A stretch of DNA of 64,000 nucleotides from contig ONGA01000002.1 of the NCBI GenBank assembly GCA_900317285.1, positions 114,627 through 178,626 of the forward strand, given 5' to 3'. The notes beneath the pieces were generated by a model. It was not told the origin of the DNA, did not search any database, and saw nothing but the letters and a program-made list of their open reading frames with translations. Below, one piece after another: positions 22,986-42,359 of the stretch; the stretch's first letter is position 1; the number at the start of each line of letters is the position of its first letter. A program made the translations under genes and the position numbers. This DNA is from an uncultured Bacteroidales bacterium. GTDB taxonomy: Bacteria; Bacteroidota; Bacteroidia; Bacteroidales; P3.

Positions 22986-23480
22986 TTAAATCATAGAAAG
23001 CAACAAAGACATAATGCGGTCTCTCGTTATTTCGCTTGTTATGAGTTCAAACAATTCCTCATCAATGATTGCGTATTCGTAATCGGTTTTCAATGCCGCT
23101 ACCGACCAGGACGTCCGCTGCTTCCATTCTTTAGACTTTTTGAGCGTCCAGAATGGTTCCCCGGAAAGATGATAGAACGGATTGGCGATATTGCATTTAA
23201 AGGGATAGGCTTTCTTTTCGCCTCCAAACAACTCCTCCGCCACACGGTCGTGAGGCATCTCCTCGTCGCTGTCGACATACTCCTTCCAAAGCGTTTTGAA
23301 CTTTTCTACAAGATCTGCATTCAGAAAAACCTTGTTCTCCGTGATTTTGCCTTCCTCCACCATCTCGCATATAGCCATCAGCAGCACCAACTTGTGAGGA
23401 GCCCGATAGCCCTTCACAACAGCCCTATTCATACCCGACAGCAACTCTGCATAATGCTCGAAGGTGGCTTCTGCATCCAT
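22986..23480 (-). CDS. SBD-like DNA-binding protein (RAPHK motif)
   Basis: A 164-aa protein, last gene of the 12-gene operon, 4 bases after the HerA-type gene. GYRAPHKLVLLMAICEMVEEGKI (RAPHK at 26-30), then NIANPFYHLSGEPFWTLKK, match the head domain of McrA-type enzymes that bind phosphorothioated DNA (sulfur-binding domain) and of related HNH proteins. No HNH or other nuclease motif follows, so it would be a stand-alone reader or adaptor. Whether it recognises a modification is unknown; the hydrophobic pocket residues cannot be judged by eye. Base composition matches the GC-richer core genes. Confidence 0.65.
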   Translation of the reverse strand: MDAEATFEHYAELLSGMNRAVVKGYRAPHKLVLLMAICEMVEEGKITENKVFLNADLVEKFKTLWKEYVDSDEEMPHDRVAEELFGGEKKAYPFKCNIANPFYHLSGEPFWTLKKSKEWKQRTSWSVAALKTDYEYAIIDEELFELITSEITRDRIMSLLLSMI

Positions 23481-23484
23481 ATCC

Positions 23485-25095
23485 TCAAATCAAATGGGTT
23501 ACCTTGATTTTCTTCCAGCTGGGACCTAAACCTAATTCGGCAAGCGAGCTGTCGCGGGTGATAAGTTCGCCTTTTTGCAACCCGGTGATTGCCTGTTTGA
23601 GGTCTTGCAACTGGCTTCCACTTACACCGAAGAGGTCTTTCAGTACCGAATCGTTCTGCTGTTGCTGCTTCATGATAAGCGGATACTGCGCATTGGCGTA
23701 GAAGTCGATGCTCTTGCTCTTGAAGTCTTCCATATTCTGTGTGGCCAGAATGATACTCATGCCCTTGTTGCGTCCCACAGCTATGAGGTTCTGAAGGGGT
23801 TTATTCTCAAAACCGAGCATATAGTGAGCCTCATCGATAATGGTGAAGTGGCGTATCTCCACCCGCTCATCATTCATCGCCTGTTTGGGCAGCTGCTCGT
23901 AGATGTTATTCAACTTTGAGATGACGAAATAGACGATAGCTTTAGCAATGATACCGTTCTTCTCGAAACGTCCCAGATTGATGATATTGCAGGTGTGCAC
24001 CAAGTCAATCTTGTCCTCGTCGGCGAAGATGTTATTGTTCACCAGCTGGTTGAGTACCGACTTCACGCTGTCCATATCGCCCTGTTTCTTTTCGGGCAGC
24101 AGACGGTTGTAGTGCTCGAATATCATCTTGAAGTTGACGGGCTTCATCTGGTTGGCCTTGTAGGCGTTCACGATGGCCTCGCTGAGCCGGTTGTCCATAT
24201 TGGCGCTGATTTTCGCCCCTGAGCTGATGGCCAGCAACGCTGTCGCCATCGTGGTGGAATAGAGGTTCAGTTCGTTAACGGGCTTTCCTGTAAAGTCTTT
24301 AAAGGGTGTGAACGGAAGTGGACGCTCCATAGGGTTGAGAATGGCTGTACTGTCGGTATCGAACAGCGAGAGCCAGGCAGCATTGGCGGGGTCGGAGAAC
24401 TCGCCTTTGTAGTCGAAGAGCAGGAAGTTGACCGGATAGTGGGTGTCGCTCGATGCAGAGCGCATCTGTTGCAGCAACACCGCCAGCAGGTTGCTCTTGC
24501 CGCTACCTGTGGTACCGGCCACCAGTATCTGGGTGTTCGCAATCGCCCTACTATTGATGTCAAGTGTAGCAGGCATATCGTCTCCGTAACTGCCGATGCA
24601 TAGATTCAGCACGGGAATGTCGTTGGCACTTGCACCTCCACGCAGAGGCGAGAAGCGCAGCCAATCGTCGATACCGCCTTCTTTCATCAAGATGTCGCGT
24701 CCACGAAGAATCTCGTGGGCAATCACACGACTCACAACAGCAGGTGTTTTCCAGTCGGCATCCACATCGTGGTAGCGCATCTTAAGCAGAGCCTCTACAT
24801 ATTGGCCAATATTGTATTTCGTGAAGAAGGTGCTGGAATAAGGACTGCTGGTAAGCGACAGGTTGATATTGGCCACTTCGTCACTTGTACGAGGTGTTTT
24901 ATCGGCCAATCCAGCCAACAGACACATCCTCATCACCACACTCTGAGAGATGACCACAGGGCGGTCGTTAGGATACTCCTTAAGGTTCATCCTTTGTTCG
25001 AGGGCTGCCTTCACGTCGGCTGTCATCTCGTTCATTCCCTCGAAAGACTTGATGGTATTGTTGATTACCAAATTATCTACTGTCATATCTCTCAA
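23485..25095 (-). CDS. DndE-like domain fused to HerA/FtsK-type ATPase
   Basis: A 536-aa protein. Residues about 45-140 (VMRMCLLAGL, YNIGQYVEALLKMRYHDVD, AHEILRGRDIL) follow the DndE (DUF1832) pattern, a DNA-binding protein of phosphorothioation systems. Then comes an ATPase: Walker A VAGTTGSGKSNLLAVLL (192-208), FLLFDYKGEFSD as in HerA, Walker B FTIIDEAHYMLGF and GRNKGMSIILATQNMEDF. HerA-type ATPases form hexameric DNA pumps or translocases. Its ATG overlaps the DndD-like stop (ATGA), arguing for a stoichiometric complex. The DndE assignment rests on pattern similarity only. Confidence 0.72.
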   Translation of the reverse strand: MRDMTVDNLVINNTIKSFEGMNEMTADVKAALEQRMNLKEYPNDRPVVISQSVVMRMCLLAGLADKTPRTSDEVANINLSLTSSPYSSTFFTKYNIGQYVEALLKMRYHDVDADWKTPAVVSRVIAHEILRGRDILMKEGGIDDWLRFSPLRGGASANDIPVLNLCIGSYGDDMPATLDINSRAIANTQILVAGTTGSGKSNLLAVLLQQMRSASSDTHYPVNFLLFDYKGEFSDPANAAWLSLFDTDSTAILNPMERPLPFTPFKDFTGKPVNELNLYSTTMATALLAISSGAKISANMDNRLSEAIVNAYKANQMKPVNFKMIFEHYNRLLPEKKQGDMDSVKSVLNQLVNNNIFADEDKIDLVHTCNIINLGRFEKNGIIAKAIVYFVISKLNNIYEQLPKQAMNDERVEIRHFTIIDEAHYMLGFENKPLQNLIAVGRNKGMSIILATQNMEDFKSKSIDFYANAQYPLIMKQQQQNDSVLKDLFGVSGSQLQDLKQAITGLQKGELITRDSSLAELGLGPSWKKIKVTHLI

Positions 25096-27104
25096 TCGTT
25101 AATGGTGATACCGAAATAGTCATTTGTGATATTGGTGCATTGCGCCTCTTTGTCTCGGTGCAGGGTGTAGGTCTTTGCCACAAAGGGGGCAATCTTCTTG
25201 AAGTCGCGCTCGGTGGTGATTTCCGTATCGGTGCTGAGCAGGATGGTTTGGTGAGCCAAATCGGGGAAGTAGTGCTCCAGTATCACCTCGCGGCTCTCTT
25301 TGTCGAGCACACCCATCACGGTGTCTATCATCACCGGCGGGTTGTAGTCACCCAGCTCGTAGAGCACCTTCAGCAGCACCTGCATCACCGTCTGCTTGGC
25401 ACCGGCATTCAACTGGCTCAGGTATATCTCGTTGCCGTTTTGGTGATAGATTTTGAAGGTCATCTCCTCGCCATTCTCTGCCGAAAGGTCAACCCTTCCT
25501 ATCACGCCGGCATACACTACCAGGTTCAGGTTCAGCTGTTCTTTCATCATCTGCTCGATGTTCCGACGCTTCGAAGCCAACAGTTTGGCTGCAAGGGTCT
25601 TGAAATATCCGGGCAGTTTGCACAGCATGTCGTATTGCGGGTCGGGAATCTGCGGTATGTCGTAGTCGAAGGTGGCGATTTTGTCTGTCAGTCGCTGTAT
25701 CTCACGTTCTGTCTCGCTTATCCTGCCGTTGAGTTCCTTCATGTTTTTCTCATTGTCCTCGTAGGTGGTGATGAGGTTGTAATCCAATCCGCTCAACTCA
25801 CGCTCGTAGTTCTGCAGCTGCTCACGTTTATGGGGCAACTCGGCCACATCCATATCTATGCTTTCGCGCTCGTTGTCGAGTTGCAGGAACTGATTGACGT
25901 AGGCATCGCTTATCAGTTTCTCCAGCACTTCCACGTTGGCATCGTTCAAATAGGGATATTTCTCGGCCAGCACATCGCCGTGTTTGCGTCCTTTCTGCAT
26001 GTGGCGCACCACGTCGTCCACCTTCACACCGGCAAGTTCTTTGTATTTCTCGGCCAGATAATCCACGATGTCGCGTGTGATTCTCGCCAGCTGCTCGTCG
26101 CTGATTTCTTCACCGCGTTCTTCGGCCAGCCGCTTGCGTTCGCTCACTATCATCTCCACCTCGGGACGTATGCGATGGGCTAATGCCGGGAAGAGCACAT
26201 TCAGCTCAAGGTCTTTGACCACCTTGTCCACGCTTTCGCGATACTCGCCAGCTTTGTTCTCCACCTGCTTGATGATTTCTTTCTGCTTGTTGATGCGGTC
26301 GCGCGTCACGTTGTCAGCGTTGCGCCCCTGCTTCAACTGTTCGTAGCGGTCACGGTTGTCGTTCGAATATTCCAGAGCTTTCTCATAATCCTCGCGCAGT
26401 TGTTTCAGTTCGGCCTCTTTGCCCTGTTTCTGATGTCCCAACTGCTCATACTCCTGACGCTGCTTCTCGTTCTCCAACTTGGCAGCCTTCTTTTCTGCCA
26501 ACAAGGTGTCGGCTGCCTCCTGCAGCTGGTAGTATTTGTTGAAACCCATCACCGAGTTGATGTTCTTCATGATGAGCTTGCTTATCTGCTCTTCTTTCAC
26601 CAGCTCGCTGGTCTTCATGGCATCGAAAAGGAAGTAGTTGCTCAGCTCCGACGGCAGGTTGGCGGCGATGATTTTGTTCACCATTTCCTCCTTGTCGGCT
26701 CGCTGTGCGGCCGGAGTGACAATACCATAAGTGAAACGGTTGCCGTTCATGTTCAATTCCACATTCCAGCGCACTTTGCCGTCGATGAGCTGATAGCTGC
26801 GTTTCAGCTTGTAGGGGGTCTCGTTACCCAACACTAGGCCGCTGAACGATATCTCCAGCACGATGCTCTTGTTGTCCACACCCTGTTCCAGTTTTACGCC
26901 CGCGTTGAAGTATTCGTCAAACTGGCGTGCAGTCTTTATCTCCAAGCCGTACAGCGCGTGGTAGATGGCATCGAAGAGGGTGGTCTTTCCGCAGCCGTTA
27001 CCGCCACCTATCAGGATGATGGGACGATCCTCGTCGGCGCTTAGGTCGAGGTCGAGCCGACGGTAGGTCTTGTAGTTCTCCGCGTAGATATGTGTTATCT
27101 TCAT
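25092..27104 (-). CDS. DndD-like SMC/Rad50-type ATPase
   Basis: A 670-aa protein of the size of DndD. Walker A GGGNGCGKTT (33-42) follows IYAENYKTYRRLDLDL; long charged coiled-coil segments lie at about 205-300 and 420-480; near the C-terminus come SQLNAGAKQ (ABC signature-like), VMIDTVMGVLDKESRE (Walker B and D-loop) and HQTILLSTDTEI. These endings are characteristic of DndD, the ATPase of DNA phosphorothioation systems, where it works with DndC and DndE. No DndC lies in this operon, so its partner here is probably the DndE-HerA fusion it overlaps by 4 bases. Action on DNA is inferred. Confidence 0.82.
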   Translation of the reverse strand: MKITHIYAENYKTYRRLDLDLSADEDRPIILIGGGNGCGKTTLFDAIYHALYGLEIKTARQFDEYFNAGVKLEQGVDNKSIVLEISFSGLVLGNETPYKLKRSYQLIDGKVRWNVELNMNGNRFTYGIVTPAAQRADKEEMVNKIIAANLPSELSNYFLFDAMKTSELVKEEQISKLIMKNINSVMGFNKYYQLQEAADTLLAEKKAAKLENEKQRQEYEQLGHQKQGKEAELKQLREDYEKALEYSNDNRDRYEQLKQGRNADNVTRDRINKQKEIIKQVENKAGEYRESVDKVVKDLELNVLFPALAHRIRPEVEMIVSERKRLAEERGEEISDEQLARITRDIVDYLAEKYKELAGVKVDDVVRHMQKGRKHGDVLAEKYPYLNDANVEVLEKLISDAYVNQFLQLDNERESIDMDVAELPHKREQLQNYERELSGLDYNLITTYEDNEKNMKELNGRISETEREIQRLTDKIATFDYDIPQIPDPQYDMLCKLPGYFKTLAAKLLASKRRNIEQMMKEQLNLNLVVYAGVIGRVDLSAENGEEMTFKIYHQNGNEIYLSQLNAGAKQTVMQVLLKVLYELGDYNPPVMIDTVMGVLDKESREVILEHYFPDLAHQTILLSTDTEITTERDFKKIAPFVAKTYTLHRDKEAQCTNITNDYFGITIND

Positions 27105-27382
27105 GCCTGTACCTCCTTTAACGCTTTATTAAGGATTTTGCGAAGTTTCTTCTCATCGATGGCCTCCTCGTTGCGCGCCTCATTGTAGGGTTTCAGGATA
27201 TTTTCCTTCAGCCAGTCGGGGTCGATGTCGGCTCCTCGGGCGGCATCTTCGATGATGTTCATGTCCTCCTGCCTGATGCCATAGTGCAGGAATGTGCGGT
27301 CAAGTCCTTTCTTCATATCTTTCTTATCTCCATAGCTGTAGAACGCGAGGTTCTCCAACATTCGTTTACGTTTGTTTTTCAT
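27101..27382 (-). CDS. small protein associated with the DndD-like ATPase
   Basis: A 93-aa basic, helical protein: KRKRMLENLAFYSYGDKKDM at the start and DIDPDWLKENILKPYNEARN in the middle. I have seen similar small proteins annotated as partners of DNA-modification ATPases, but I cannot name the family with confidence. Its ATG overlaps the stop of the DUF262 gene (TAATG at 27384-27380) and its stop overlaps the DndD-like start (27101-27104), so translation is tightly coupled. It probably binds the ATPase; no catalytic motif is visible. Confidence 0.7.
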   Translation of the reverse strand: MKNKRKRMLENLAFYSYGDKKDMKKGLDRTFLHYGIRQEDMNIIEDAARGADIDPDWLKENILKPYNEARNEEAIDEKKLRKILNKALKEVQA

Positions 27383-28995
27383 TATTCCTCATCAAGAATA
27401 ACACCCAACTCTCGAATAAATTTTATCTCTTCTTCTAACATCTTTTTTCCTCTTTCATTAAAATCGTCTACGTTATTTACATTGAAAAAAGACGCAGATA
27501 GTATTTTTTTATCCGTCTCAATATTGTAGGAGATTTGATACGGGAATAATGATTTGTTCTCTTGATAATATACCATGCTGTTCCCCTTTATCCTATTAAA
27601 CGCTTTAGTCTCTACATCCGTAAATAATGTACAACAAGGGGCGTGGCTCGGTTCGCATGGAGAAGTGAAAGTTTGACGGAAAATGGCATCCTGCATACAC
27701 TCAGGACAATTCTTAAAAATGTTATTAATAACGAACAAAGCCAATGCACAAGACCTTACTCCTCTTATATTGAATTCGTATGGGAGAGACCACTGTTTCA
27801 AGAAAATATAATGAGCAAAAGGTCTAGAAAAGTCTTTGTTATTTATCGACGTAATAAAATGTTGAAATTCCTTTCGTTGATCTGCTAATGAGTTGTTTGT
27901 AAAGAAACTGGAATAAGTAGTTAACCAGAACCACTCCTTCATCCAGTCTTTTTGTTCTGCAGAGGGTTCTTTAATCCGGCGGAAGAACTCCATGCAAAAA
28001 ATCAATTGGCTATTATACGGTAGAAGTTTTCTATCGATTACATGTAAATCCTCATATAGGAACTGTACTGCGTTTTTAATTGCAGGAACAGACTCATCCA
28101 CAATAACTTTTCTAAAATTATCTTTTCTTGCTAATCTTTCAATTTTATCTTGGTCAAAATATATTTTATCATCAAAAGAACTTTGGAAACAACGGAAGAT
28201 GGCATTTCTACTAAGATCTTCAAAATGGTATTTTTGTAATGAATTAAGTAATTCGTCTGTTGTTTGTGCCAAATTGAAGCCACTTTCTTTGTCATAAGAA
28301 AGTGCATGAATCATCCAGTCGATTGTAACCTTTGTTCCCTCTTTATTAATTCTGGAAAAAATGTCGGCAGCTTGGTTAATGTCAGCATTTTCTATTTCAG
28401 TACACAAAATATTGTAATCAAGAAGGCGGCTACAGAAACCATCTGCTTGATCAAGAATTCTTTCTTTTTCTTCCTCGTCTTTACATTCAATTTCCAAATG
28501 CTCTCTATAGTACTTTCTAAAATCACTCGCCACCAGCATGACATTTAATGGAAATTGCCAATATTTGGGTTCTGTCTTTCTGCTGATATATACAAATTCG
28601 TTAGAATTTGCATCATAATACAAAGAGAAGAATTTCCCCAACATATCACTATCACAGGATATACTATCTGTATCTCCATTATAGAGGCAGCTGAACAAAG
28701 ATGACAACCTTTGATAACCATCTAAAACATAATAATCTTGTTGTCCTTCTCTTGGTATTGTATAAGCCCCAAGTTTAGATTGCGTTAGATTGTCGGATTT
28801 ATCAGAAGGCTTCCATAAAAAAACTGTTCCGACAGGATAGCCTTTATTGATGCTATCAAACAAGTTTTTCACATTATCTCTTTCCCAGATAAAACCACGT
28901 TGAAACTGGGGAACTTGTATACTCCCTTGCTTGATGTATTGCAACAGGCTAGTCAAAGTTCTGTTGCTGGTTCGAATAGAAAGTCTTTGCGCCAT
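27382..28995 (-). CDS. DUF262 (GmrS-like) protein, first of two
   Basis: A 537-aa protein. QVPQFQRGFIWERDNVKNLF (28-47) and YYVLDGYQRLSSLF (88-101) are the DUF262 ParB-like motifs; the family motif DGQQR is DGYQR here (92-96). DUF262 is the NTP-hydrolysing half of type IV restriction enzymes such as GmrSD and of other defence proteins. No C-terminal HNH (DUF1524) motif is visible, so the nuclease half may be another gene. The sequence is AT-rich (28141-28200 has 15 G/C of 60) unlike the neighbouring res gene, marking it as part of an inserted cassette with the next two upstream genes. Confidence 0.82.
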   Translation of the reverse strand: MAQRLSIRTSNRTLTSLLQYIKQGSIQVPQFQRGFIWERDNVKNLFDSINKGYPVGTVFLWKPSDKSDNLTQSKLGAYTIPREGQQDYYVLDGYQRLSSLFSCLYNGDTDSISCDSDMLGKFFSLYYDANSNEFVYISRKTEPKYWQFPLNVMLVASDFRKYYREHLEIECKDEEEKERILDQADGFCSRLLDYNILCTEIENADINQAADIFSRINKEGTKVTIDWMIHALSYDKESGFNLAQTTDELLNSLQKYHFEDLSRNAIFRCFQSSFDDKIYFDQDKIERLARKDNFRKVIVDESVPAIKNAVQFLYEDLHVIDRKLLPYNSQLIFCMEFFRRIKEPSAEQKDWMKEWFWLTTYSSFFTNNSLADQRKEFQHFITSINNKDFSRPFAHYIFLKQWSLPYEFNIRGVRSCALALFVINNIFKNCPECMQDAIFRQTFTSPCEPSHAPCCTLFTDVETKAFNRIKGNSMVYYQENKSLFPYQISYNIETDKKILSASFFNVNNVDDFNERGKKMLEEEIKFIRELGVILDEE

Positions 28996-28996
28996 A

Positions 28997-30043
28997 TTAT
29001 AATAATTGTCTTATTTCTTCTACTATATGCATCAATTCGTCTGGATCTGCTGACTCTGGATGATTCACACGATTATTTAGTGCTTCCTTACAAATATGTG
29101 GGTCATTAAAGAATTTTGGAAACTCCGATTTAAAACTACCGTGTAGATTTGGACCATGTAACAGGTGTTGATAATTCCCAGAAGAAATGCCATTGAATAA
29201 ATCCTTTATACCTTGTGGTAGTTTGTCAAACTCAAGTTGCTTGTTCTGTTTATTCGTTTTAGGTATGTCTTTGTAAAATCCTTCGGCAATACAATAATAG
29301 TCTTTTTGGGGGGCTGATAGTCTTAAATAGGCATTTACCCATTCTTCCCCAAATTTATCTCGATTTGAATCGAAAACTTCATCTGGTAGGTAATTTTCCT
29401 GCGCTCGTTTATTTAGTACATAGTATTGAACACCTCTTTCATTAAAAAAAATTCTCTCGTTATTCTGTTTGTCATAATTTTCGTATTCTGTGTCATTAGG
29501 ATAACGTCTGTCTCCGTCCACGATAACAAGACAACGTAGAAACTTGGGCTTGCCGTGATGATTTCTAATAAATTCTTCCACTCTACGTTTTGCTCCAGAT
29601 CCTCCTGCATTATCAATTATTACGATGTCTTTTGATACAAGCCGTTCAAAATCTATGTCTTCGTCAAAATACTTTTCGACAACTTTAATAAAAAAGCCAT
29701 CGTTTGTTGCATCTTCCAACACAATTCGAGCTCCAAATGACACATATTCGCATATTTCCGATAGACTAAATAGCCTTTCAGTTAGTTCGCTTTCTCCATT
29801 CAAGGTTACAATACAGTCACTTTTATGGGAAGTATGAGGACTATTGTTGCATTTGTTTAGTAGTTCCAAAAAACGAATTTTATCCAAATGGTTCAATCTT
29901 GTCAAATCTTTAGAATCAATGGATTGGGATGTGAAGATAATACATCTATAGGGTATGAGGCCCAACAATTCGTTGAAGTCGTCACTACTGGATTGAGCGG
30001 ATCCAAGATCCAACAGAACCTCTTTGTCAATGGATATATTCAT
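28997..30043 (-). CDS. TOPRIM-like partner of AAA ATPase
   Basis: A 348-aa AT-rich gene whose ATG overlaps the stop of the upstream ATPase gene (30040-30043), a strong sign of a two-protein unit. I do not recognise the family, but the order of acidic motifs fits a TOPRIM fold: Glu110 in ARIVLEDATNDGFF, Gly-rich IDNAGGSGAKRRV (147-150) and DGD in CLVIVDGDRRYPND (176-178). ATPase plus TOPRIM nuclease pairs occur in OLD, Gabija and PARIS-type defence. The nuclease role is therefore an inference from motif spacing and context, and the C-terminal third is unassigned. Confidence 0.6.
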   Translation of the reverse strand: MNISIDKEVLLDLGSAQSSSDDFNELLGLIPYRCIIFTSQSIDSKDLTRLNHLDKIRFLELLNKCNNSPHTSHKSDCIVTLNGESELTERLFSLSEICEYVSFGARIVLEDATNDGFFIKVVEKYFDEDIDFERLVSKDIVIIDNAGGSGAKRRVEEFIRNHHGKPKFLRCLVIVDGDRRYPNDTEYENYDKQNNERIFFNERGVQYYVLNKRAQENYLPDEVFDSNRDKFGEEWVNAYLRLSAPQKDYYCIAEGFYKDIPKTNKQNKQLEFDKLPQGIKDLFNGISSGNYQHLLHGPNLHGSFKSEFPKFFNDPHICKEALNNRVNHPESADPDELMHIVEEIRQLL

Positions 30044-31089
30044 TTTCTTTCGCGAATTCTTTGGTTATTAATGGCAAGAATCTCTTCCATTTCCTCTTCA
30101 AACAATCCTTCTGGCCACTGAGGAATTCTACCATCCTCTTTCGTCTCAATTCTATTTAGAGAGCTGCTTTTTTCATCTTCATCATATTTCACATAATATA
30201 GAGCAACATCATTGACATTGATTCTCCCCTCTGCTAGCAATCTCTGCAATCTCAGAATAAAAGTGTGCGAGTGCGTCTCTATCAAATATCTTTTATTCTC
30301 ATCTTCTATTGTTGAATCGACAATTAGTTGGCACAATTCTGCATGGGCTGCCGGATTGAGATGAGACTCTGGCTCCTCTAGAACAACAAGGGTGGGTTCT
30401 TCCGCTTTTTGACATGCACGGATAACTATTGGCAACGACTGAATGATACCTGTTCCACAATCCTGAAGAGGTACAGCAAATCCATTGTTTTTCATTTCAA
30501 CATGAAACACAGGGTCTTGGTCAACATTTACTTCAACTGACCATCCTTCAAAATTATCATGATACCATTTTGAAACTTTACCACACAAAAAACGAGTTGG
30601 TGTTTTTGCATCTCTCAATAATGTTTGGTATAAATTAATCCCATCTACTCCTGACACTTTTGGCGTTTGTGTATCTATTCGTAAATCTAAATTCGGTTGC
30701 CATCTGAATGGACCAATATAATCTATTCGAGTGGAACGGCCTTTGGTTTCAATCCTATCCTCGTATAAATCGAAAACGGGTTTATCAATATCTACATGAA
30801 ATTTGATTTCCTTTTCGTTTACACCATTCGAATACTTAATATACACAGCACTTGAACCTTTTCTATACACCAGGTCAAGATAGTCTTCACAAAGTTTTAC
30901 TCCATTATATGAATTGAAAAAGTACATTGGTTCTTCCGAATGATGAATGGATAAAGCTAACATGGGCAATTTCAACACCGCGCTCTTACCTGCATTGTTT
31001 TTGCCGAAGAGTATGGTTATCGGTTTGATGTCAAGAGCCTGTCGCTTCTTGAAAATACGATAATTTTCAAATTCTATATGTGTAAGCAT
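30040..31089 (-). CDS. AAA/ABC-type ATPase (RecF/OLD-like)
   Basis: A 349-aa protein: ITILFGKNNAGKSAVLKLP (Walker A 29-36), LVVLEEPESHLNPAAHAEL (Walker B with signature-like acidic residues) and YLIETHSHTFILRL (switch His). These are the features of AAA15/21 ATPases found in OLD-type and DUF3696 proteins. It lacks coiled coils. It overlaps the TOPRIM-like gene and begins 4 bases after res. AT-rich composition sets it apart from res. It probably gates the activity of the downstream TOPRIM-like protein. Confidence 0.85.
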   Translation of the reverse strand: MLTHIEFENYRIFKKRQALDIKPITILFGKNNAGKSAVLKLPMLALSIHHSEEPMYFFNSYNGVKLCEDYLDLVYRKGSSAVYIKYSNGVNEKEIKFHVDIDKPVFDLYEDRIETKGRSTRIDYIGPFRWQPNLDLRIDTQTPKVSGVDGINLYQTLLRDAKTPTRFLCGKVSKWYHDNFEGWSVEVNVDQDPVFHVEMKNNGFAVPLQDCGTGIIQSLPIVIRACQKAEEPTLVVLEEPESHLNPAAHAELCQLIVDSTIEDENKRYLIETHSHTFILRLQRLLAEGRINVNDVALYYVKYDEDEKSSSLNRIETKEDGRIPQWPEGLFEEEMEEILAINNQRIRERK

Positions 31090-31093
31090 AATC

Positions 31094-33472
31094 TTATAGG
31101 TTTTTCAAATCTAATAATGTCCACCCGTCGGTGGTTTTGTCGTCCTCAATGATGCCGCTGGGATAGTACCAGTTCTCACTTTTTTGCACCAGAATGCCGC
31201 CAGTGACTTTAAGGTAGCCACGAGTAGGCTGTCCGTCGGTGTTGAGCTGCGGGGATTCTCCGTTTCTCTCCTGACAATACTCCCACAGAGCGTTGTTCTT
31301 TTCAGGCGAGTCCTCGTCGCTGCCGGGGGTCTTGGTGTCGAAGAGGCAGAGTGTACCGCTCTTCAGGCGGATGATGAAGTCGACGTAGAAACAACGCTTC
31401 CGTCCGCCGCTGTCGGTATAGGGAACGGCGAAGTGCTGCTTGCCCTCGTCGCCGTTCTTGTACCACCAATCCACCTGTTCCGTCTGCTTGTCTATCCAGC
31501 GGGCAAAGTTTCGTTCGGGGGTTGAGGCATTTAACTGCTCGAAGTAGGGCCTCAAGGCGTGGTTGTAGATGTCGTCGACGGGAGCCACCACAGCCGAGTT
31601 GTAGATTCTCGTGGCCGGTATCTCGAACCGCCCAACGCTGTAGTCGCGCATGGCGGCAGGTTTCGCCTTCAGGGTGTTGCCGTATCGCAACAGGGCACTC
31701 CGTATCAGCTCCTCCACAAAGCCTCGGTTACCGCTGTAGAGCAGCACCTTGATGGCTTCTGTCTCGAAGTGTCCGAAGTAGGCTTCCATCATGTCCAGCA
31801 GCGCTCCCCGCAATACGGGCGTACTGTCGTAACGGGCGTAACTGCCCACATGGCTGCGGCAGAAGAGGGTGAACAGCGATTCCAACTCCGAGGCGTTCCT
31901 CGCTATGCGGGCTTTCTTCACCACCACCACTTCGCCGTCGGCGCCGGTGAGTTGCGTGTCCTGCGGTATCTCGATGAAGATTCGCGCCACATCGAGGGTC
32001 AGGCCTCCATTGCGGGCTTTCTCGCGGTTCTGCGCCCTCTCGTTGTCCAGGAGGCTCGTCTGCTGTCCCTCCTCCTGTTCGCTGTCCAACGCCAGCGGGT
32101 CGAACAACTGCGCCTGCTGTAGTTTCAGTTTGTTTTCCAGCACGTCGCACAGCACCTTGCGGAAGCCGCTTCCCAGACGGTTGCGCTGCTCGTTGCGATC
32201 CATATATACGCTGCGCAGTTCTATGTTGGTCAGCCCTTCTCGTCTGTTGGCATACACCGAGCTGATGTAGTTCATATCGTCGCCCACCACGCTGATGATG
32301 TCGGCCGAGAGGTTGGTATAGACGTAGCCGTAGTTGAGGTTGTCGTCGTTGTAAAAATGCTGTTGGGGCATACGTAGTATACGTCCCACCGTCTGGGTGG
32401 TGAAGGTCATACTCTTCAACTCGCGGAAGATGAGCAGCACCGCCGCCCTCGGGCAATCCCACCCCAAGGCTATGGCCTGTTTGAAGAGCAGCACTTTGGT
32501 GGTGTCGTCGTTGTGGACGATATTGGCCAGATTGGGACTCTTCTCTTTCGAAAGCCATACGGCCAATCCGCCGTTGTCCTCTGTGATATCGATGCCGGGA
32601 GTGGCCAGATATTGCTTCACCTCGTCGGCTATGGTCGTTTCCTCACGGCTGAGGCTCTCGCTACTGTCGTTGGGCAGCTGCACCAGCAGCAGGGGGTTGA
32701 TGCCGTATTCTTTCAGCTCTTTGGCAAGGTCGTCGCATTTCTGAAGGGCTCGTTTCAGCAGCCGCTGGTTCACCGTCAGGTCGCTCTGCTCGCGGTCGCT
32801 CTTCACGTCGGGGTTCAGCTGCACGCCTTTCTTGATCATTTCCTCGTCGACCACCTCCTGGCGTTGCACCACCACGGTGTCGCACCCGCCGGTGATAGGG
32901 GTGGCCGATACGCGCAGCTCGATGTCGGGGTTGATATTGGCCAGCACCTTCTCGCTCTTCACGGCGTTGCGCCCGCCGAACATGTGCTCTTCGTCGATAA
33001 TCACCACCACGGGGATGCCGTTTTCTATCCTTGTGCGGCGCAACAGCTCGTAGAGGGTGCGGTTCTGCTCGTTGTCGCGTATCAGCACGGCATTGTCCTT
33101 GTTGATGCTCTCCCAGTTGAGGAACAGCACCTCGCCGTCGCGCAGCCCTTCCAGATGTTCGCACTCGTCGAACATCACGGGACGCAGGCTTCGTGTCTCG
33201 CTGAAGAAGTTGCGCATCGAGCGGTAGCTCTGCTGGTGCAGTTTGTTGGGCGCTATCCACACCCACGCCACGCGGGTGTACTTGCATTCGCCGCTCTCCT
33301 TCAGCTCGCGCTGTAACTCGTCCATCATGGCGCTCACCATCACCGTCTTGCCGCTCCCCGTGGGCGCTTTGAACACCATCTTGTTCCGCTGTCCGCCGAA
33401 GTTCAGCAGCCTCACCACGCGCTCCTTCAGCTCGTGTACTGCCGTCCGCTGGTAGTTTTTCAGTTCAATCAT
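31094..33472 (-). CDS. res: type III restriction Res-like helicase-nuclease
   Basis: A 792-aa SF2 protein. Walker A FKAPTGSGKTVM (36-43), motif II IIDEEHMFGG (160-163, DEEH), and the C-terminal helicase motif FTTQTVGRILRMPQ. Near the C-terminus FYVDFIIRLKSGTLCLFDTKT fits a PD-(D/E)xK nuclease as in type III Res subunits, with DTK as the catalytic core. Type III Res works with Mod to cut unmethylated DNA. Here mod lies 3 kb upstream in the same operon, separated by an AT-rich cassette. GC content is like that of the host (31861-31920 has 33 G/C of 60). Confidence 0.88.
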   Translation of the reverse strand: MIELKNYQRTAVHELKERVVRLLNFGGQRNKMVFKAPTGSGKTVMVSAMMDELQRELKESGECKYTRVAWVWIAPNKLHQQSYRSMRNFFSETRSLRPVMFDECEHLEGLRDGEVLFLNWESINKDNAVLIRDNEQNRTLYELLRRTRIENGIPVVVIIDEEHMFGGRNAVKSEKVLANINPDIELRVSATPITGGCDTVVVQRQEVVDEEMIKKGVQLNPDVKSDREQSDLTVNQRLLKRALQKCDDLAKELKEYGINPLLLVQLPNDSSESLSREETTIADEVKQYLATPGIDITEDNGGLAVWLSKEKSPNLANIVHNDDTTKVLLFKQAIALGWDCPRAAVLLIFRELKSMTFTTQTVGRILRMPQQHFYNDDNLNYGYVYTNLSADIISVVGDDMNYISSVYANRREGLTNIELRSVYMDRNEQRNRLGSGFRKVLCDVLENKLKLQQAQLFDPLALDSEQEEGQQTSLLDNERAQNREKARNGGLTLDVARIFIEIPQDTQLTGADGEVVVVKKARIARNASELESLFTLFCRSHVGSYARYDSTPVLRGALLDMMEAYFGHFETEAIKVLLYSGNRGFVEELIRSALLRYGNTLKAKPAAMRDYSVGRFEIPATRIYNSAVVAPVDDIYNHALRPYFEQLNASTPERNFARWIDKQTEQVDWWYKNGDEGKQHFAVPYTDSGGRKRCFYVDFIIRLKSGTLCLFDTKTPGSDEDSPEKNNALWEYCQERNGESPQLNTDGQPTRGYLKVTGGILVQKSENWYYPSGIIEDDKTTDGWTLLDLKNL

Positions 33473-33476
33473 CTGG

Positions 33477-34163
33477 CTATTTTATTGGCAATTTATCAGG
33501 GTCAGCTTTAGTTGGGTTAGGAGTACCTGTCGCTCGATCAGCTTCTCCCCAATGAGTCATACCCGTTCCGTCAAATATCTCGAAATGATCTTTGTGCAAG
33601 GTATCCAAATACCACAATCTCCCTGTAGTATTCTCTTTATAAACTTGGGCACCACGAGTGTGCTTGTATTTGTCGGAGGATGGTGTAAATAACGGATTTC
33701 CGCTTAATTTATAAATCGGAGCCTCTATTTTGTCACAATAGGCGATTAAGTCATTTTTGTTGTTAAAACAAGGATAGCAATGCCAATCATCAGGTAGATG
33801 AAACTTGTGTGGGGCATCTTGGAAAATGTGCATTGCTTTCTTGGGATAGACCCGTTCTGTTAATATAGCCCAATCATATACATCTACGCTCGACTGCTCC
33901 ACACAGTAGTTATACATAGAGTCAATAGGTTGTATTGGCTGTGCAAGAGAATTTCTATAATCCCATTCAAAACAACAAACACTCATGTCTGGATGAACGC
34001 CTTTTTCCAATTTCCTAATATCCAAAGCTGTTTTAAGGGCTTTGTCATTTTCAAGGACTGCACAAGGCATGCATAAACGCATATTTCTACGACGCTCCAT
34101 TCTCAATTCTTTAACAATAGAACGTATTGTTGGGGTTAGCTCTGGGACAAAAACAATAACCAT
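33477..34163 (-). CDS. hypothetical protein of defence cassette
   Basis: A 228-aa protein I do not recognise. It has a Cys-containing N-terminal half (RLCMPCAVLENDK, DMSVCCFEWDYRN), HCYPCFNNKNDLIAYCDK in the middle and a C-terminal GRLWYLDTLHKDHFEIFD with Trp/His-rich GMTHWGEADRATG. No known nuclease or hydrolase motif is evident, although the C-terminal part has the flavour of a toxin or nuclease. It lies 4 bases after the DUF3696-like ATPase and 4 before res, both on the same strand, and is AT-rich, so it is probably the effector or partner of that ATPase. Confidence 0.65.
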   Translation of the reverse strand: MVIVFVPELTPTIRSIVKELRMERRRNMRLCMPCAVLENDKALKTALDIRKLEKGVHPDMSVCCFEWDYRNSLAQPIQPIDSMYNYCVEQSSVDVYDWAILTERVYPKKAMHIFQDAPHKFHLPDDWHCYPCFNNKNDLIAYCDKIEAPIYKLSGNPLFTPSSDKYKHTRGAQVYKENTTGRLWYLDTLHKDHFEIFDGTGMTHWGEADRATGTPNPTKADPDKLPIK

Positions 34164-34167
34164 GGAC

Positions 34168-35328
34168 TTAGCCTCCTATCAGATATTCTCTATCAGCTTC
34201 AATTCTGTCAAAGAAGCCCTTAGGCTGATATTCTATTTCTCCTTCGGATAATAATTTGATTTCTTTGTAAATCACTGCATGATTCTCGTCCTGACCACCG
34301 AAATAGTATATGGAGACATTCTTACGGTCAATTCCACAACCTTCTTTTTCAAAACGCTTGCAATTCACTAATACGCCGTTGATGATATGGTCGCTGTGAG
34401 TTTCCGCCACCACCTGTATACCTCTTTGGGCAACCAGACACATCAGTTCTGCCAATTTTGCCTGACCTTCAGGATGCAAATGTGCCTCGGGGTTCTCTAC
34501 CATTATCAATGCTCCAGGTTTGGCAGAGAGTAGCGCGGTTACAACTGACAAGGAATAACTGACGCCAAATCCTACGTTTTCAGCACGAAGATTTTCAATT
34601 GATTTTTTCCCTTCTACACCTTTGGAACCATAGATGATTCTATATCCGGTCTTGTCTGGTTTTTGTTGTACATCAATGGTTATTCCCGTGCTAATCTGCT
34701 GCTCCCAATAAATGACCTGTTCGATTAGCGAGATCGGATTATCTTCTGATTTGATGTAGTTAAACGTGGGTTCAGCGCGATATGCATAAAGGAAGTTGCC
34801 AAGTAGTTCGCCTTGTCCGTTTTCCAAAGAAATCTGGCGTTCTGTATTAACCTCGTACGATGCAATGGGGAAGTCGCTTACTCCTGCCCAACGCGAGGCA
34901 CTGAGATATTGGAAATCAGCGCCAAAAAGAGAATTTGACAACGATAATGCCTGCTCGTTTGGAGAATCTTCAATGGGTAAAAGCGATTCTTCGAATAATG
35001 GGAGAAAAGATGCATCCAAAGCATTCTCATCAACACGGTACGTAAACATGTGTTTGGCATTTCCCGAGGTTATTTCAAACGATAAGTAAGGTTCATCTGC
35101 CAGTCTGTATAATGCATCATTTCCAACTCCAATGGAAACTAGTGGCTTATTCAAATCAAGGCCTTTGTTCAGTATGCCTTTTTTAAAGGTTTGTCTAAGT
35201 AAAAGCAGCGACTGAAGCACACTTGATTTCCCAATGTTGTTTACGCCGGAAATCAGTGTTAATGGCCTCATGTTGAGTATTGTTTGCCGATGTGATTTGA
35301 AATTATTCAGCTTCAATTTTGTTATCAT
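34168..35328 (-). CDS. AAA ATPase, DUF3696-like
   Basis: A 386-aa ATPase: LTLISGVNNIGKSSVLQSLL (Walker A 28-35), ALIMVENPEAHLHPEGQAKL (Walker B), VVAETHSDHIINGV (His switch). The C-terminal EIEYQPKGFFDRIEADREYL resembles DUF3696, which ends many stand-alone defence ATPases. It overlaps the DUF262 gene upstream by 26 bases and is followed by the unknown gene after 4 bases. It and the other ATPase in the operon share fold but little sequence outside the motifs. AT-rich. Confidence 0.85.
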   Translation of the reverse strand: MITKLKLNNFKSHRQTILNMRPLTLISGVNNIGKSSVLQSLLLLRQTFKKGILNKGLDLNKPLVSIGVGNDALYRLADEPYLSFEITSGNAKHMFTYRVDENALDASFLPLFEESLLPIEDSPNEQALSLSNSLFGADFQYLSASRWAGVSDFPIASYEVNTERQISLENGQGELLGNFLYAYRAEPTFNYIKSEDNPISLIEQVIYWEQQISTGITIDVQQKPDKTGYRIIYGSKGVEGKKSIENLRAENVGFGVSYSLSVVTALLSAKPGALIMVENPEAHLHPEGQAKLAELMCLVAQRGIQVVAETHSDHIINGVLVNCKRFEKEGCGIDRKNVSIYYFGGQDENHAVIYKEIKLLSEGEIEYQPKGFFDRIEADREYLIGG

Positions 35329-36478
35329 AGATTTTTATTTTTTTATTTTGCAAAGTAAAATACACAATTCTTTCCATCCAGGAAAATCTTGTTCTAACCG
35401 ATGACGGATCACCAGTACCTCCAGAAAATGAATTAAAGTATGTTTTTGAGTATTTCATTGCAGTCATCATATTTTGCTCAAGCAAGCTGTTCTTTTCAAG
35501 AATGGACATCCTTTCATTCTCTTTCAGCTTTGCAAACGTAACACTGATAACTTCAAAGTATGCTTTGTTTAACGGGCCTCTCCTGTCTTTCTCAGATGTC
35601 ATTTTCCTAAATGCGCGCTTCCCAAACAAAGTCAGAGACATGGTCATGGCTTTCTTAAAGTCGTTCTGCATTTTATTTCTGTACGATTCGTCCGACTCGT
35701 TTTTCAGGTATTCCATCGCTTCGTTAATGAATCTATCCAAGTCAGGTTTATATGCTTCCCATCCCAAAATATAAAAAGCGGCAAATCTGGAAATGAAGTC
35801 CATATCTGTTTTTCGGGTTGTTTCGATGGAAGACAACGTCGCGTCCCGGAACTCTTTGCTTGTCGACATTGCATATATAGTATCAATCGCAATCCCAGAG
35901 AAAACAGCATTCCTAATTTCTTGTGGAGTGAGGGGAATGCCGCCAGTGTTCAGACGTTTGAATAGAATATACTTTACCATATCAGGTACACCCTTTTCCA
36001 ATAGATTCACCGTAATGGGGAGCATTCGAATGTCACGTTTGGTCGGAAAATCAAATTCGCTATATTTTTTTCCATTGAAGTGCTCTGCCAAAAATTCCAG
36101 ATCTGATAATGCGAGCGTTTCTTTCACACAAAAATTTCGAATGGCACAGCACCGTTGTAGACCGTCTATGATATTCCAACTCCGCTTGTTGACTTCCTCG
36201 AAATAAAAAGCAGGAAGTCTCAACCCAAGTAAAACGGATTCTATTAAACGGCTTTGTTGTTTAGGAGGCCATAAATCTTCTGAACGTTGGTAATCTGTAC
36301 CGAAATTAATCCACCCCTCATTAATCATGTCAATCAAATCCCCCAAATTCATTGGCGGTGTTGACAAAGAGATGTCTGATGGAGAAAAAGGTTGAGTGAT
36401 GACTTCTCCATCATATTCTAATTCTTCTTCGACAACAATTGCCTTTGATTGATTGTATTTGTCATAATCTTCGCTCAT
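35303..36478 (-). CDS. DUF262 (GmrS-like) protein, second of two
   Basis: A 391-aa protein: NFGTDYQRSEDLWPPKQQSR (58-77) and WNIIDGLQRCCAI (101-113, DGLQR for DGQQR) are DUF262 motifs, and NTGGIPLTPQEIRNAVF is the family's second conserved block. No HNH motif is visible. It begins 15 bases after the methyltransferase gene and overlaps the DUF3696-like ATPase gene by 26 bases. It opens the first AT-rich cassette. It is not a simple copy of the other DUF262 gene: length and sequence differ greatly. Confidence 0.82.
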   Translation of the reverse strand: MSEDYDKYNQSKAIVVEEELEYDGEVITQPFSPSDISLSTPPMNLGDLIDMINEGWINFGTDYQRSEDLWPPKQQSRLIESVLLGLRLPAFYFEEVNKRSWNIIDGLQRCCAIRNFCVKETLALSDLEFLAEHFNGKKYSEFDFPTKRDIRMLPITVNLLEKGVPDMVKYILFKRLNTGGIPLTPQEIRNAVFSGIAIDTIYAMSTSKEFRDATLSSIETTRKTDMDFISRFAAFYILGWEAYKPDLDRFINEAMEYLKNESDESYRNKMQNDFKKAMTMSLTLFGKRAFRKMTSEKDRRGPLNKAYFEVISVTFAKLKENERMSILEKNSLLEQNMMTAMKYSKTYFNSFSGGTGDPSSVRTRFSWMERIVYFTLQNKKIKIYDNKIEAE

Positions 36479-36493
36479 GACTTGGCTCTGTTT

Positions 36494-38275
36494 CTATTGG
36501 ATATTATTATTTATTTTGTCGGCATCCTTCGGCGATCCTTCGGCGGTCTCTCGGCGGACCCTCTTCTTCGGCAGCACGCTTTTGTAGGCTTGGTAGATAG
36601 CCTCGGGCAGGGCGCAGAGTTCCACTTTGTCAATCACGGGAGCGAAGTCATCGTCCCAAGCGTAGGCGCCAGGCGAGAAGACATACGTCTTCAGTTGAGA
36701 GTTAAGAGTTGAGAGTTGAGAGTTGGCTGGCGCGGTTTGCAGCCAGTCGACGATGTCGGGGATGGCCTCCTCGTTGTATATCACCATCATCGCCCGCTCC
36801 CCGTCCGAGAATAGACGTGCGTCGCGAGCCTGAAACTTGAAACCTGAACCCTGAAACTCATCGAAGATGTTCTCCTTTATGCACAGCAGGTCGGTGCTGG
36901 CAGCCACGAGGCGGCGCATATTGCGGTTGGTGCGCTCACGCGGCAGCAGGTGGGTGCGGTAGTAGCGCAGGTTGTTGTCGTGCAGGCCCTCCACCTGTGT
37001 GCCTTTGGGCGTGGTGTAGCCCTCAATCACACGCCGATTACGCTCGTAGGTAACCTCGCGGCAGATATTGTTCTCGTTGTTCGTCACCAGAATGCATTGT
37101 CGCTTGCCACCATCTTCCTTGTTCAGCTGCATAACGGCGTGCAACGTGGTACCGCTGCCAGCAAAGAAGTCAAGAATGGTTATATTCTTATCAGCAGAAG
37201 CAATTTGAATTATCTGCTTTAATAACCTCGTTGGTTTCGGTGAATCAAAAGGAGGATGTCCAAAAATATCTTTTAGTTCTTTTCTTGCTTCATCATTATG
37301 ACCACACTCATCGTAACTCCAATAAGTGGTTGGCACAACTCCTTGTTGCACTTCCGACAAATATCTTTTTAGTTGGGGTGCTCCCTTCCCATCCAATCCA
37401 AAATATACCCTCGTCTCTTTAATCCAATCTTCAACCCGTTCTTTATTTGTCATCCATGATCGTCCTTTGGGAGGATTATATTCTTTACCTGTATTAGGGT
37501 TCGTTATAGGATAATCATAATTTGCAGAATATGTTCTCACAGATAAATTATCAGGACGCCATCTACCTTTTCCGTCATTGGAATCATATTTGTATAGATG
37601 ATTTTGCTTCTCTGTTCTTGGCAGTAAATTTCGTAAAAACTTATCAGTCTTTCTATAAACCAACAAATAATCAAGGACACTAGAAAATGTTTTAGAATCG
37701 TTGGCAGATGCATAGTTTTTGTGCCACATTGCTTGCGCCACAAAATTCCTTTCCCCGAACACCTCATCACACAACAGTTTCAGATTAGCTTGTTCGTTGT
37801 CGTCTATGGAGATAAAGATAACCCCGCGGTCGGAGAGCAGACGCTTGGCTATGCGCAGACGTTTGCTCATAAAGGAGAGCCACTTGCTGTGGCGGTAGCT
37901 GTCCTCGCTCTCCACAAAGCTGTCGTTGTAGACGAAGTCCTTGTTGCCCGTGTTGTAGGGCGGGTCGATATAGATTACGTCCACCTTTCCCTCGTGGGTG
38001 TAGGAGAGCGTGGTCAACGCCTCCAGGTTGTCGCCCTCGATGAGGATGTGGTTCGGGGCATCCTTGCCGCCGTCAAGCAACGCCAAGTCTTTGTCCTCCA
38101 CCAGCACAGGAAGCTCCTTGCGCAGCCGCTCTTCGACAGCCTCCTCGCGTTCCTCCCACACAAGGCCGTAACGCTTCGTGGCTGCCAATTCCAGCAGTGC
38201 CGCCCGCTCCTCGTCGGTCAGCCCCTCCAGCGTCTGTATCCGCTGCCTCAACGCAGCCCTGTCTATCTTTCCCAT
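36494..38275 (-). CDS. mod: type III-like DNA methyltransferase (Mod), mosaic
   Basis: A 593-aa beta-class N6-adenine methyltransferase: DPPYNTGNKDFVYND (DPPY 104-107) precedes ILDFFAGSGTTLHAVMQL (FAGSGTT 371-377). The target recognition part between them (about residues 175-365, bases 37180-37750) is AT-rich (37621-37680: 18 G/C of 60), while both flanks are GC-rich (38041-38100: 35 of 60), indicating exchange of the recognition domain. Two 7-base arrays lie near the C-terminus: 36691-36726 (NSQLSTLNSQL) and 36828-36859 (FQGSGFKFQA). First gene of the operon, with a -7 box at 38326-38333. Confidence 0.92.
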   Translation of the reverse strand: MGKIDRAALRQRIQTLEGLTDEERAALLELAATKRYGLVWEEREEAVEERLRKELPVLVEDKDLALLDGGKDAPNHILIEGDNLEALTTLSYTHEGKVDVIYIDPPYNTGNKDFVYNDSFVESEDSYRHSKWLSFMSKRLRIAKRLLSDRGVIFISIDDNEQANLKLLCDEVFGERNFVAQAMWHKNYASANDSKTFSSVLDYLLVYRKTDKFLRNLLPRTEKQNHLYKYDSNDGKGRWRPDNLSVRTYSANYDYPITNPNTGKEYNPPKGRSWMTNKERVEDWIKETRVYFGLDGKGAPQLKRYLSEVQQGVVPTTYWSYDECGHNDEARKELKDIFGHPPFDSPKPTRLLKQIIQIASADKNITILDFFAGSGTTLHAVMQLNKEDGGKRQCILVTNNENNICREVTYERNRRVIEGYTTPKGTQVEGLHDNNLRYYRTHLLPRERTNRNMRRLVAASTDLLCIKENIFDEFQGSGFKFQARDARLFSDGERAMMVIYNEEAIPDIVDWLQTAPANSQLSTLNSQLKTYVFSPGAYAWDDDFAPVIDKVELCALPEAIYQAYKSVLPKKRVRRETAEGSPKDADKINNNIQ

Positions 38276-38362: not shown

Positions 38363-38393
38363 TTTTCACACGGATGTGAAATCCGTGTGAAAA
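38363..38393. terminator. hairpin after the large helicase gene
   Basis: Perfect 13-bp stem (TTTTCACACGGAT / ATCCGTGTGAAAA) with a 5-base loop; read on the - strand it is followed by a T-rich stretch (ATTATTTTT). It separates the helicase transcript from the mod promoter and may act in both directions. Confidence 0.75.
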
Positions 38394-41698: not shown

Positions 41699-41714
41699 AA
41701 GGACTAATGTTTTA

Positions 41715-42359
41715 TTAGACGTGTAAGGATATATGTATGGTGTCGGAGGTGCGGCCGCGAGTGGAGCGGAGGAAGGAGTAGAGGTGGAGTGCATGGCTGT
41801 CTGATTGTGGGATTGCCTGAGTAGGTTCTGTGGGTTGGAGCCATTCTGGAGGGAGGATAGCGGTGACGAGGCCGGAGGAGCGGGGGACGGGGGTGGCGAG
41901 ACGGCCGGTGCAGAGGACGGGACAGTAAACGAAGAGGTAGAACTCGTCAGTGGTTTTGCCGCCATAGACACGGGTGTCGAACGTGACGGTGAGGGCACCG
42001 TTGTCGATGGTGGCCGAGGTGATTTCCACCTGCTCCACCGAACCGCGACTGACGATGACGCGCGGGAGGTTGATCTCGCCGTCCGGGGTGAAGCAGTCTT
42101 TGTTGAGGTTACGGAAAATGGCATAGGTGCTGTTGTGCTCCCTGATGGCGTGCCAATGAAGTCCAATGAGGTGGGCCTCTTTCATGTAGGACGAGAGTTT
42201 GGAGACCATCGCGAAGTTGCTGCGGTAGGCCTGCTGTGCTTCGGTTTGCGGATTGGCCACAGAGGTGGGCATGGAGCGCTCGCATTGCCGCCCATGCCAG
42301 GTGTAGTATATCTTGTTGCCGAGTTTCCCGCTCTCGGAATCGCCCTGTTTCCTTGCCAT
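41715..42359 (-). CDS. DUF6266 family protein
   Basis: A 214-aa protein: GKLGNKIYYTWHGRQCERSM at the start, PTSVANPQTEAQQAYRSNFA and LNKDCFTPDGEINLPRVIVSRG match DUF6266, a Bacteroidota family of unknown function often in several copies per genome. No signal peptide. An 8-base repeat near the 3' end (41795-41827) encodes part of QAIPQSDSH. The helicase ATG follows 16 bases downstream, so the two may be co-transcribed. High GC. Confidence 0.85.
   Translation of the reverse strand: MARKQGDSESGKLGNKIYYTWHGRQCERSMPTSVANPQTEAQQAYRSNFAMVSKLSSYMKEAHLIGLHWHAIREHNSTYAIFRNLNKDCFTPDGEINLPRVIVSRGSVEQVEITSATIDNGALTVTFDTRVYGGKTTDEFYLFVYCPVLCTGRLATPVPRSSGLVTAILPPEWLQPTEPTQAIPQSDSHALHLYSFLRSTRGRTSDTIHISLHV

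Follow-up and report, generated by a model that had tools for sequence, protein, structure and literature searches.

A stretch of 64,000 nucleotides from an uncultured Bacteroidales bacterium (GCA_900317285.1, contig ONGA01000002.1, positions 114,627-178,626; the window hereafter) carries, at window positions 22986-38275, an operon whose conserved unit is a set of five genes in fixed order, encoding a type III methylase (Mod), a type III restriction protein (Res), a small protein, a DndD-like ATPase and a protein that joins a DndE-like domain to a HerA ATPase (DndE-HerA). The genes of the operon are lettered A to L in the order of transcription, from A (Mod, at the 38275 end) to L (the last, at the 22986 end), and the core is thus A-E-I-J-K; U denotes a helicase gene upstream. 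With a probability of roughly 0.6, we read the core as a defence system in which Mod marks self DNA, DndD, DndE-HerA and the small protein work as a complex that scans unmarked DNA and moves it, and Res is the nuclease of that complex. Its branch, found mostly in Bacteroidota, pairs DndD and DndE with a type III methylase; a search of the window's genome turned up no sulfur enzyme.

Relatives were fetched from genome contigs with a profile of K, the HerA protein, and the best 80 of 184 form the scope of all counts over 80 loci. By record title, all but three come from organisms that we take to be Bacteroidota; the three are labelled Alphaproteobacteria (L104), Ignavibacteriales (L123) and just "bacterium" (L127). 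Long loci are the 56 of the 80 with at least 8 kb upstream of K, the 24 shorter ones standing outside the count of 55/56 given below. The initial annotation had made recurrence of the core genes in other genomes the test of its claim to a new system, and they do recur: J is present in 56/56 long loci, Res and Mod in 55/56 each, and the small protein in 54/56 by frame-wise search (43 from called open reading frames, ORFs, alone). The two long loci in which that search missed it are L134 and L060; in the latter, the called J ORF has 131 residues too many, and small-protein DNA of the window does align there. Order and strand are fixed in 55/56 long loci; the exception, L134, retains 92 residues of J and lacks both A and E. 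Over all 80 loci, many of which end early, J lies upstream of K in 79, Res in 69 and Mod in 60, and genes stand within 60 bases of each other in 76 of 79 loci for J and K and in 40 of 60 for Mod and Res. The counts over long loci take in one exact duplicate, L132/L133, and some incomplete genes: A is a fragment in L112, E in both L065 and L128, and J in three loci (L100, L128, L134).

We define the core as A-E-I-J-K because these genes are nearly constant in the long loci, set against no matches over the 80 loci for B, D and U, one each for C, F and G, and three for H. As background, among the 295 genomes of the order, 35 have a Res match of any kind at any place. Taken with the co-occurrence in 55/56 loci and the grouping of linked Res proteins in one clade (see below), this makes chance linkage of the core genes unlikely.

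The duplicate loci L132 and L133 lie about 74 kb apart on one Pontibacter arcticus contig (NZ_QMDV01000006.1) and are identical across all 21,581 bases fetched, system included, which reflects either a recent duplication or an assembly artefact.

Proteins of the conserved core

Mod has type III Mods as its nearest solved structures (6k0w, named adenine specific, E-value 4.6e-64; EcoP15I 4zcf, 5.4e-42). Among 57 relatives, 55 have the DPPY motif, 53 the motif I pattern and 51 both in that order; in the two without DPPY, the fetched stretch has its edge 91 or 115 bases from the start of the called ORF, which lies downstream of the motif. Entropy reaches 2.2-2.9 bits over residues 181-360, compared with 0.5-1.4 bits over residues 21-180 and 361-440, and the C-terminal part from residue 441 is variable too (1.3-3.4 bits). 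In the near relatives L056 and L057, the hypervariable region is a homology gap between conserved flanks. Judged from these alignments, it behaves as an exchanged target-recognition region would be expected to.

Res is matched by the PADLOC model REase_III (8.4e-18). Residues D698, D712, T713 and K714 are invariant in all 53 aligned sequences, and relatives carry the Walker A pattern in 56/60 cases and DExH in 60/60. Searches found no PDB match to Res at E 0.001 and no Pfam match for an HKD/PLD domain in it at E 1. The small protein, 93 residues long in the window, mostly has 69-75 residues in relatives; it has no PADLOC match, its Pfam and NCBIfam matches are all under the cut-off, and none in the PDB falls under E 0.01. 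J scores 197 bits with the NCBI DndD model, below the cut-off of 245.85; its Walker A motif is present in 69/69 full-length relatives, and a C-x(1-2)-C motif inside residues 201-520 in 0/69.

K, 536 residues when counted from a TTG codon, probably starts at an ATG at 25086, as the alignment of relatives suggests. Walker A and DEAH motifs are present in 80/80 loci, and the best PDB match to the whole predicted model is the DndH C-domain (7es4, E 7.5e-18). Sequence family models found no DndE in K, and it is the predicted structure that points to one. The N-terminal 149 residues are modelled with a predicted local distance difference test score (pLDDT) of 91 as strand-helix-helix, twice. All six best PDB matches of this model by Foldseek are DndE chains, at probability 0.69-0.99 and E 0.057-0.33; the five best have probability 0.97-0.99 and E 0.057-0.16, the nearest being 4lrv. 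For the DndE chains, template modelling (TM) scores go up to 0.53 (by query) or 0.70 (by target). Of the 50 matches listed, those to proteins other than DndE have probabilities of at most 0.08. A profile of eight distant relatives (L052, L053, L055, L020, L017, L018, L019, L054) matches DndE clearly (E 1.5e-9). What speaks against the assignment is that Foldseek gave no match to the domain at E 0.001 and that the profile of K itself aligns weakly, if collinearly, with four canonical DndE proteins (E 0.12) and with a DndE set to which fused relatives were added (E 0.0046). Despite these E-values we find the assignment convincing because the sole credible matches are DndE, and the model supports reading the domain as DndE-like.

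Proposed mechanism, inheritance and rival readings

The core has the gene order of the PbeABCD/CxC ABC ATPase-DndE systems as passages of PMC6459918 and PMC10853773 describe them: nuclease-helicase, small protein, ABC ATPase and DndE, often with a methylase near. By position, Res corresponds to PbeA, the small protein to PbeB, J to PbeC, and K to PbeD plus a HerA motor, and the methylase gene stands in front of all four. The present genes differ from those systems in encoding a type III Res with a PD-(D/E)xK-type motif in place of an HKD nuclease fused to a superfamily 2 (SF2) helicase, an ATPase that lacks CxC, a DndE fused to HerA and a methylase that is a type III Mod. Passages of Xiong 2019 (PMC6459918) report that pbeB, pbeC and pbeD are each required for defence and pbeA partly, with no sign that viral DNA is cleaved, and place 155 of 320 solitary pbeAC near methyltransferases.

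In the mechanism that we favour, Mod would methylate adenine at a short site picked by its variable region, thereby marking self. DndD and DndE-HerA would join the small protein in a complex that scans, clamps and translocates DNA and that engages incoming DNA without the mark. This complex would then bring unmarked DNA to Res for cleavage or stall its replication directly, as has been proposed for PbeABCD, and Res, in the PbeA position, would be the nuclease of the complex.

Several points weigh against this mechanism. Defence, methylation and complex formation are predictions from genes and modelled folds. Profile comparison of the small protein with four CxC/Pbe-type small proteins detected no similarity (hhalign E 0.12), and its parallel with PbeB therefore rests on position and size. 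Evolutionary distances, compared by permutation-tested Mantel correlation (r) over the 52 of the 80 loci with full-length A, E, J and K plus the window, tie Res loosely to J and K (r 0.44-0.55; 0.44-0.48 for Res-J) and the catalytic part of Mod loosely to J (0.29), and for whole Mod and J the correlation of 0.170 is not above the permutations (maximum 0.196). A close Mod-Res pair, L172, has no I-J-K in the 19 kb fetched. In genomes G283 and G275 (L015, L016, L169 and L170), J and K are kept but unlinked, and no Res match was found with the same query that matched 35/295 genomes; for Mod, G275 has no match and G283 a distant one elsewhere.

The same tests give an r of 0.946 for J and K, 0.569 for the catalytic part of Mod with the helicase part of Res, and 0.446 for the latter with J, each above all permutations; distances of the Mod variable region correlate with no other part tested. 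For a quick tree, 34 Res were taken from the 69 linked ones and joined by that of the window and seven others; L210 was excluded, its Res being split over two ORFs. The linked Res fall in one clade (37 rows, support of 99 by Shimodaira-Hasegawa-like approximate likelihood ratio test) with two others inside, L209 and L172. The contig of the first is 4.2 kb long and stops after Res, and the genome of the second has the full five-gene set elsewhere (L051). Because the J-K correlation is high, those of Res and Mod are lower and the linked Res form one clade, we read Mod-Res as a pair that has probably been exchanged between members, the motor pair J-K staying together.

It is possible, though we would not bet on it, that J and K with the small protein are the effector itself, an SMC-like clamp and pump acting on unmarked or invading DNA, to which Mod-Res supplies an exchangeable front end for marking and cleavage. 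Such an arrangement overlaps the mechanism favoured above and is compatible with it. It is suggested by the r of 0.946 between J and K, where either of them against Mod or Res gives 0.17-0.55, by distant J-K pairs that stand beside a PAPS-reductase gene or, in L018 and L019, beside a helix-turn-helix (HTH)-bearing protein and an ORF of 60-64 residues, and by the retention of both J and K, unlinked, in G283 and G275. Yet the small protein was not detected near the unlinked J copies of these two genomes, and the Mod-Res front end is nearly constant in the long loci (55/56).

We consider it unlikely that this is a defence island in which a plain type III Mod-Res pair happens to neighbour a separate DndD/DndE-HerA system. 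Such an accident would fit the Mod-Res pairs that lack I-J-K nearby, namely the close pair L172 and L213-L215, which are more distant (17-18 kb fetched), the occurrence of J-K without any Res match, and the moderate agreement of Mod/Res with J/K trees, in which whole Mod and J do not exceed permutations. It sits poorly with the fixed order and strand in 55/56 long loci, and with a clade of linked Res that admits two other rows, one of them on the contig that stops after Res. In a quick tree, in which long branches were flagged, the unlinked J copies are moreover nested within the family of linked J, and so they tentatively look derived.

A distant Mod-Res pair followed by a 525-residue ORF was seen in L212 (G560:C97) and also in L178, where, in a shorter fetch, the ORF after Res weakly matches the J model (22 bits).

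Cargo cassettes in two slots

The initial annotation described twelve minus-strand ORFs running from 38275 to 22986, which the sequence bears out, and tight junctions, which holds for gaps of 1-15 bases and overlaps of 1-4 bases at every junction except NsnA/NsnB, which overlap by 26 (Table 1). It also took all twelve genes for one machine. The coupling of a type III Mod/Res to DndD-like and DndE-HerA proteins is real, but the twelve-gene machine finds no support, and we think it very improbable: the single strand and tight junctions favour it, and against it stands the behaviour of six genes that the annotation had overlooked as two cassettes with PADLOC models of their own. NsnA, NsnB and NsnC are all present (36478-33477), NsnC as the weakest match, as are PDC-M55A, B and C (31089-27382), and each of the six genes has between 0 and 3 matches in the 80 loci.

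Near relatives show how these genes come and go. L056, L057 and L058 have neither cassette and keep A-E-I-J-K. In L056 and L057, whose K proteins are 99% and 91% identical to that of the window, DNA homology stops near the end of Mod (36525) and restarts at 33472, the first base of Res; it stops again near the end of Res (31120) and restarts at the small protein's first base, 27382. Since near relatives either lack NsnABC and PDC-M55ABC or have them replaced, with breaks at gene borders, these are cargo, passenger defence cassettes that are exchanged independently at those borders. A literature search by name found no paper treating NsnABC or PDC as a system.

Slot 1, the gap between Mod and Res, holds a called ORF of at least 100 residues in 16 of 60 loci (18 by gap length), and slot 2, from Res to the small protein or J, in 7 of 69 (10 by gap length). 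L059 has PDC-M55ABC at slot 2, as the window does. Ten of the 28 slot ORFs in relatives were scanned with PADLOC. Six gave strong matches, to AbiD, PDC-S05, PDC-S02, PtuA and PtuB (Septu) and HEC-06; one weak match, in L103, has a Schlafen AlbA_2 domain (Pfam); and three have no PADLOC match, among them the ORF of L100 with antitoxin-type domains (Pfam). The two internal slots, whose cassettes are exchanged at gene borders, are a place to seek new accessory defence genes.

One further locus, L050 (G422:C217), has the small protein, J and K, with a pair judged by eye to be toxin-antitoxin-like at the position of slot 2; its contig stops before any Res.

Table 1. Features of the operon and its surroundings, in window coordinates
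Feature	Description	Position	Strand	Basis
U	SF2 helicase, outside the operon	38414-42166	-	Pfam ResIII, Helicase_C
Hairpin	Terminator-like, between U and the operon; 13-pair stem, then T-rich tail	38363-38393	-	Consensus match only
A, core 1	Type III Mod, 593 aa (amino acids), DPPY ahead of FAGSGTT	36494-38275	-	PADLOC MTase_III 2.1e-111; Pfam N6_N4_Mtase 1.5e-39
Part of A	Hypervariable region, about residues 181-365	37180-37740	-	Taken as target-recognition region
B, slot 1 cargo	NsnA, GmrSD_N protein, 391 aa	35303-36478	-	PADLOC NsnA 6.2e-112
C, slot 1 cargo	NsnB, AAA_15 ATPase, 386 aa	34168-35328	-	PADLOC NsnB 5.2e-91
D, slot 1 cargo	NsnC-like, 228 aa	33477-34163	-	PADLOC NsnC 1.3e-12
E, core 2	Type III Res, 792 aa, SF2 helicase and C-terminal PD-(D/E)xK-type motif	31094-33472	-	Pfam ResIII 4.9e-17
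F, slot 2 cargo	PDC-M55A, AAA_15 ATPase, 349 aa	30040-31089	-	PADLOC 3.6e-71
G, slot 2 cargo	PDC-M55B, 348 aa	28997-30043	-	PADLOC PDC-M55B 1.7e-18
H, slot 2 cargo	PDC-M55C, GmrSD_N protein, 537 aa	27382-28995	-	PADLOC 2.5e-75
I, core 3	Small protein, 93 aa, FLHYGIR-like motif	27101-27382	-	Alignment; 54/56 long loci
J, core 4	DndD-like ABC ATPase with coiled-coil insert, 670 aa	25092-27104	-	PADLOC DndD 2.4e-69
K, core 5	DndE-like domain (about residues 15-140) fused to HerA/FtsK ATPase	23485-25095	-	Fold matches
L, optional	Sulfur-binding-domain (SBD) family protein, downstream, 164 aa	22986-23480	-	Profile vs SBDHga1 8h0l, E 5.8e-21
Peptidase gene	C10 family, with inhibitor domain; outside the operon	49149-51275	-

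Sulfur chemistry, known systems and neighbouring genes

The identities that the initial annotation gave to Mod, Res, the DndD-like protein, the DndE-HerA fusion and the SBD-like last gene all stand on the matches given above and in Table 1, and its statement that a DndC-type sulfur-transfer enzyme and DndB are absent extends to the window's own genome, which is 95.95% complete. No PAPS-reductase domain (PF01507) was found there, with the control positive in 14/14 genomes. The DndC model had no match in it either, a negative that adds little because its control was over the cut-off in 0/14 genomes, and DndB had none, with a control of 2/14. That phosphorothioate is nevertheless made with housekeeping sulfur enzymes, as the DndD-like and DndE-like parts and the SBD-family protein at the operon end might suggest, is hardly credible against these negatives. 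The SBD gene occurs in 8/80 loci; as a speculation, its product might recognise incoming DNA that bears sulfur marks.

Distant J-K pairs in other genomes adjoin a PAPS-reductase gene (L052, L053, L055, L020 and L017), a putative DndC. The same J-K pair thus appears, in distant relatives, together with sulfur chemistry as well. We tentatively entertain a broader idea, that the small protein, DndD and DndE-HerA may be a mark-agnostic clamp and motor that reads the output of whichever marking enzyme is present rather than one fixed modification, DndC-type backbone sulfur or type III adenine methylation being swapped, and that the operon may double as a two-slot docking platform for unrelated cassettes. 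In the branch of the window, the target-recognition region varies and the motor is constant, and this branch allows the role of the motor to be tested apart from sulfur chemistry. The 734-residue gene of L018, where a J-K pair has other neighbours, was considered as a PbeA helicase, which we do not claim, as Pfam gives helicase-associated and HTH-type domains alone.

Passages of Rakesh 2024 (PMC10853773) raise the question of whether DndD and DndE need phosphorothioate, and describe clade-3 HerA as Dnd-type systems with a DndE-HerA fusion, with Krishnan 2020 as the source. As in those systems, represented here by the PAPS-reductase-linked loci, a DndD-related ATPase adjoins DndE-HerA; the window differs in having Mod, Res and the small protein in place of the PAPS-reductase (DndC-like) gene. 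Type III restriction-modification of the EcoP15I kind shares Mod and Res with their motifs, whereas the present operon has three more conserved genes and a Res clade largely confined to this operon type. With DndFGH it shares a HerA domain nearest the DndH C-domain, here in a short DndE-HerA protein; DndF, DndG and full-length DndH are not among the operon's proteins, no genome-wide search for them having been made. MADS/BREX-related HerA systems, in the part of PMC12839542 that describes them, likewise combine a HerA motor with a methylase. MADS models match weakly (mad8 1e-17 for K, mad2 5e-8 for Mod, MAD3 5e-4 for J), but the operon's proteins match type III, DndD and DndH models better, and neither PglZ nor BrxC is among their best matches.

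The initial annotation knew of no named system with this gene set. That holds in the searched literature, which did not extend to Krishnan 2020, preprints, supplements or subscription papers: it nowhere describes Mod, Res, small protein, DndD and DndE-HerA together as a single system, and "type III restriction-modification" appears once in the main text of PMC10853773, within a reference title. Passages of PMC10853773 and PMC6459918 already cover the pairing of DndD with DndE-HerA and relatives linked to a methylase. What is already known is thus DndE-HerA fusions and methylase-linked relatives, and what is new in the searched literature is the type III five-gene set, which may be listed in Krishnan 2020 or in supplements.

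Downstream of K, L059 (11616-12470) and L062 (11616-12470) have near-identical 284-residue genes, the L059 copy with topoisomerase C-terminal repeats (Pfam). A single-linkage set of 45 proteins from 26 loci, which may be chained, takes in these genes and relatives of L; 44 of its members lie downstream of K.

At the upstream border, gene U is similar to PbeA and to a Dnd-associated restriction enzyme in their helicase parts. We rejected it as an operon member because it is found in 0/80 related loci and a terminator-like hairpin lies between it and the operon. A promoter scan with the sigma-70 consensus, which covers sigma-70 alone, returned 43 sites compared with 30.3 in shuffles and did not confirm the one visible promoter of the initial annotation. 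Also outside the operon, a gene at 49149-51275 encodes a peptidase of the C10 family that carries an inhibitor domain.

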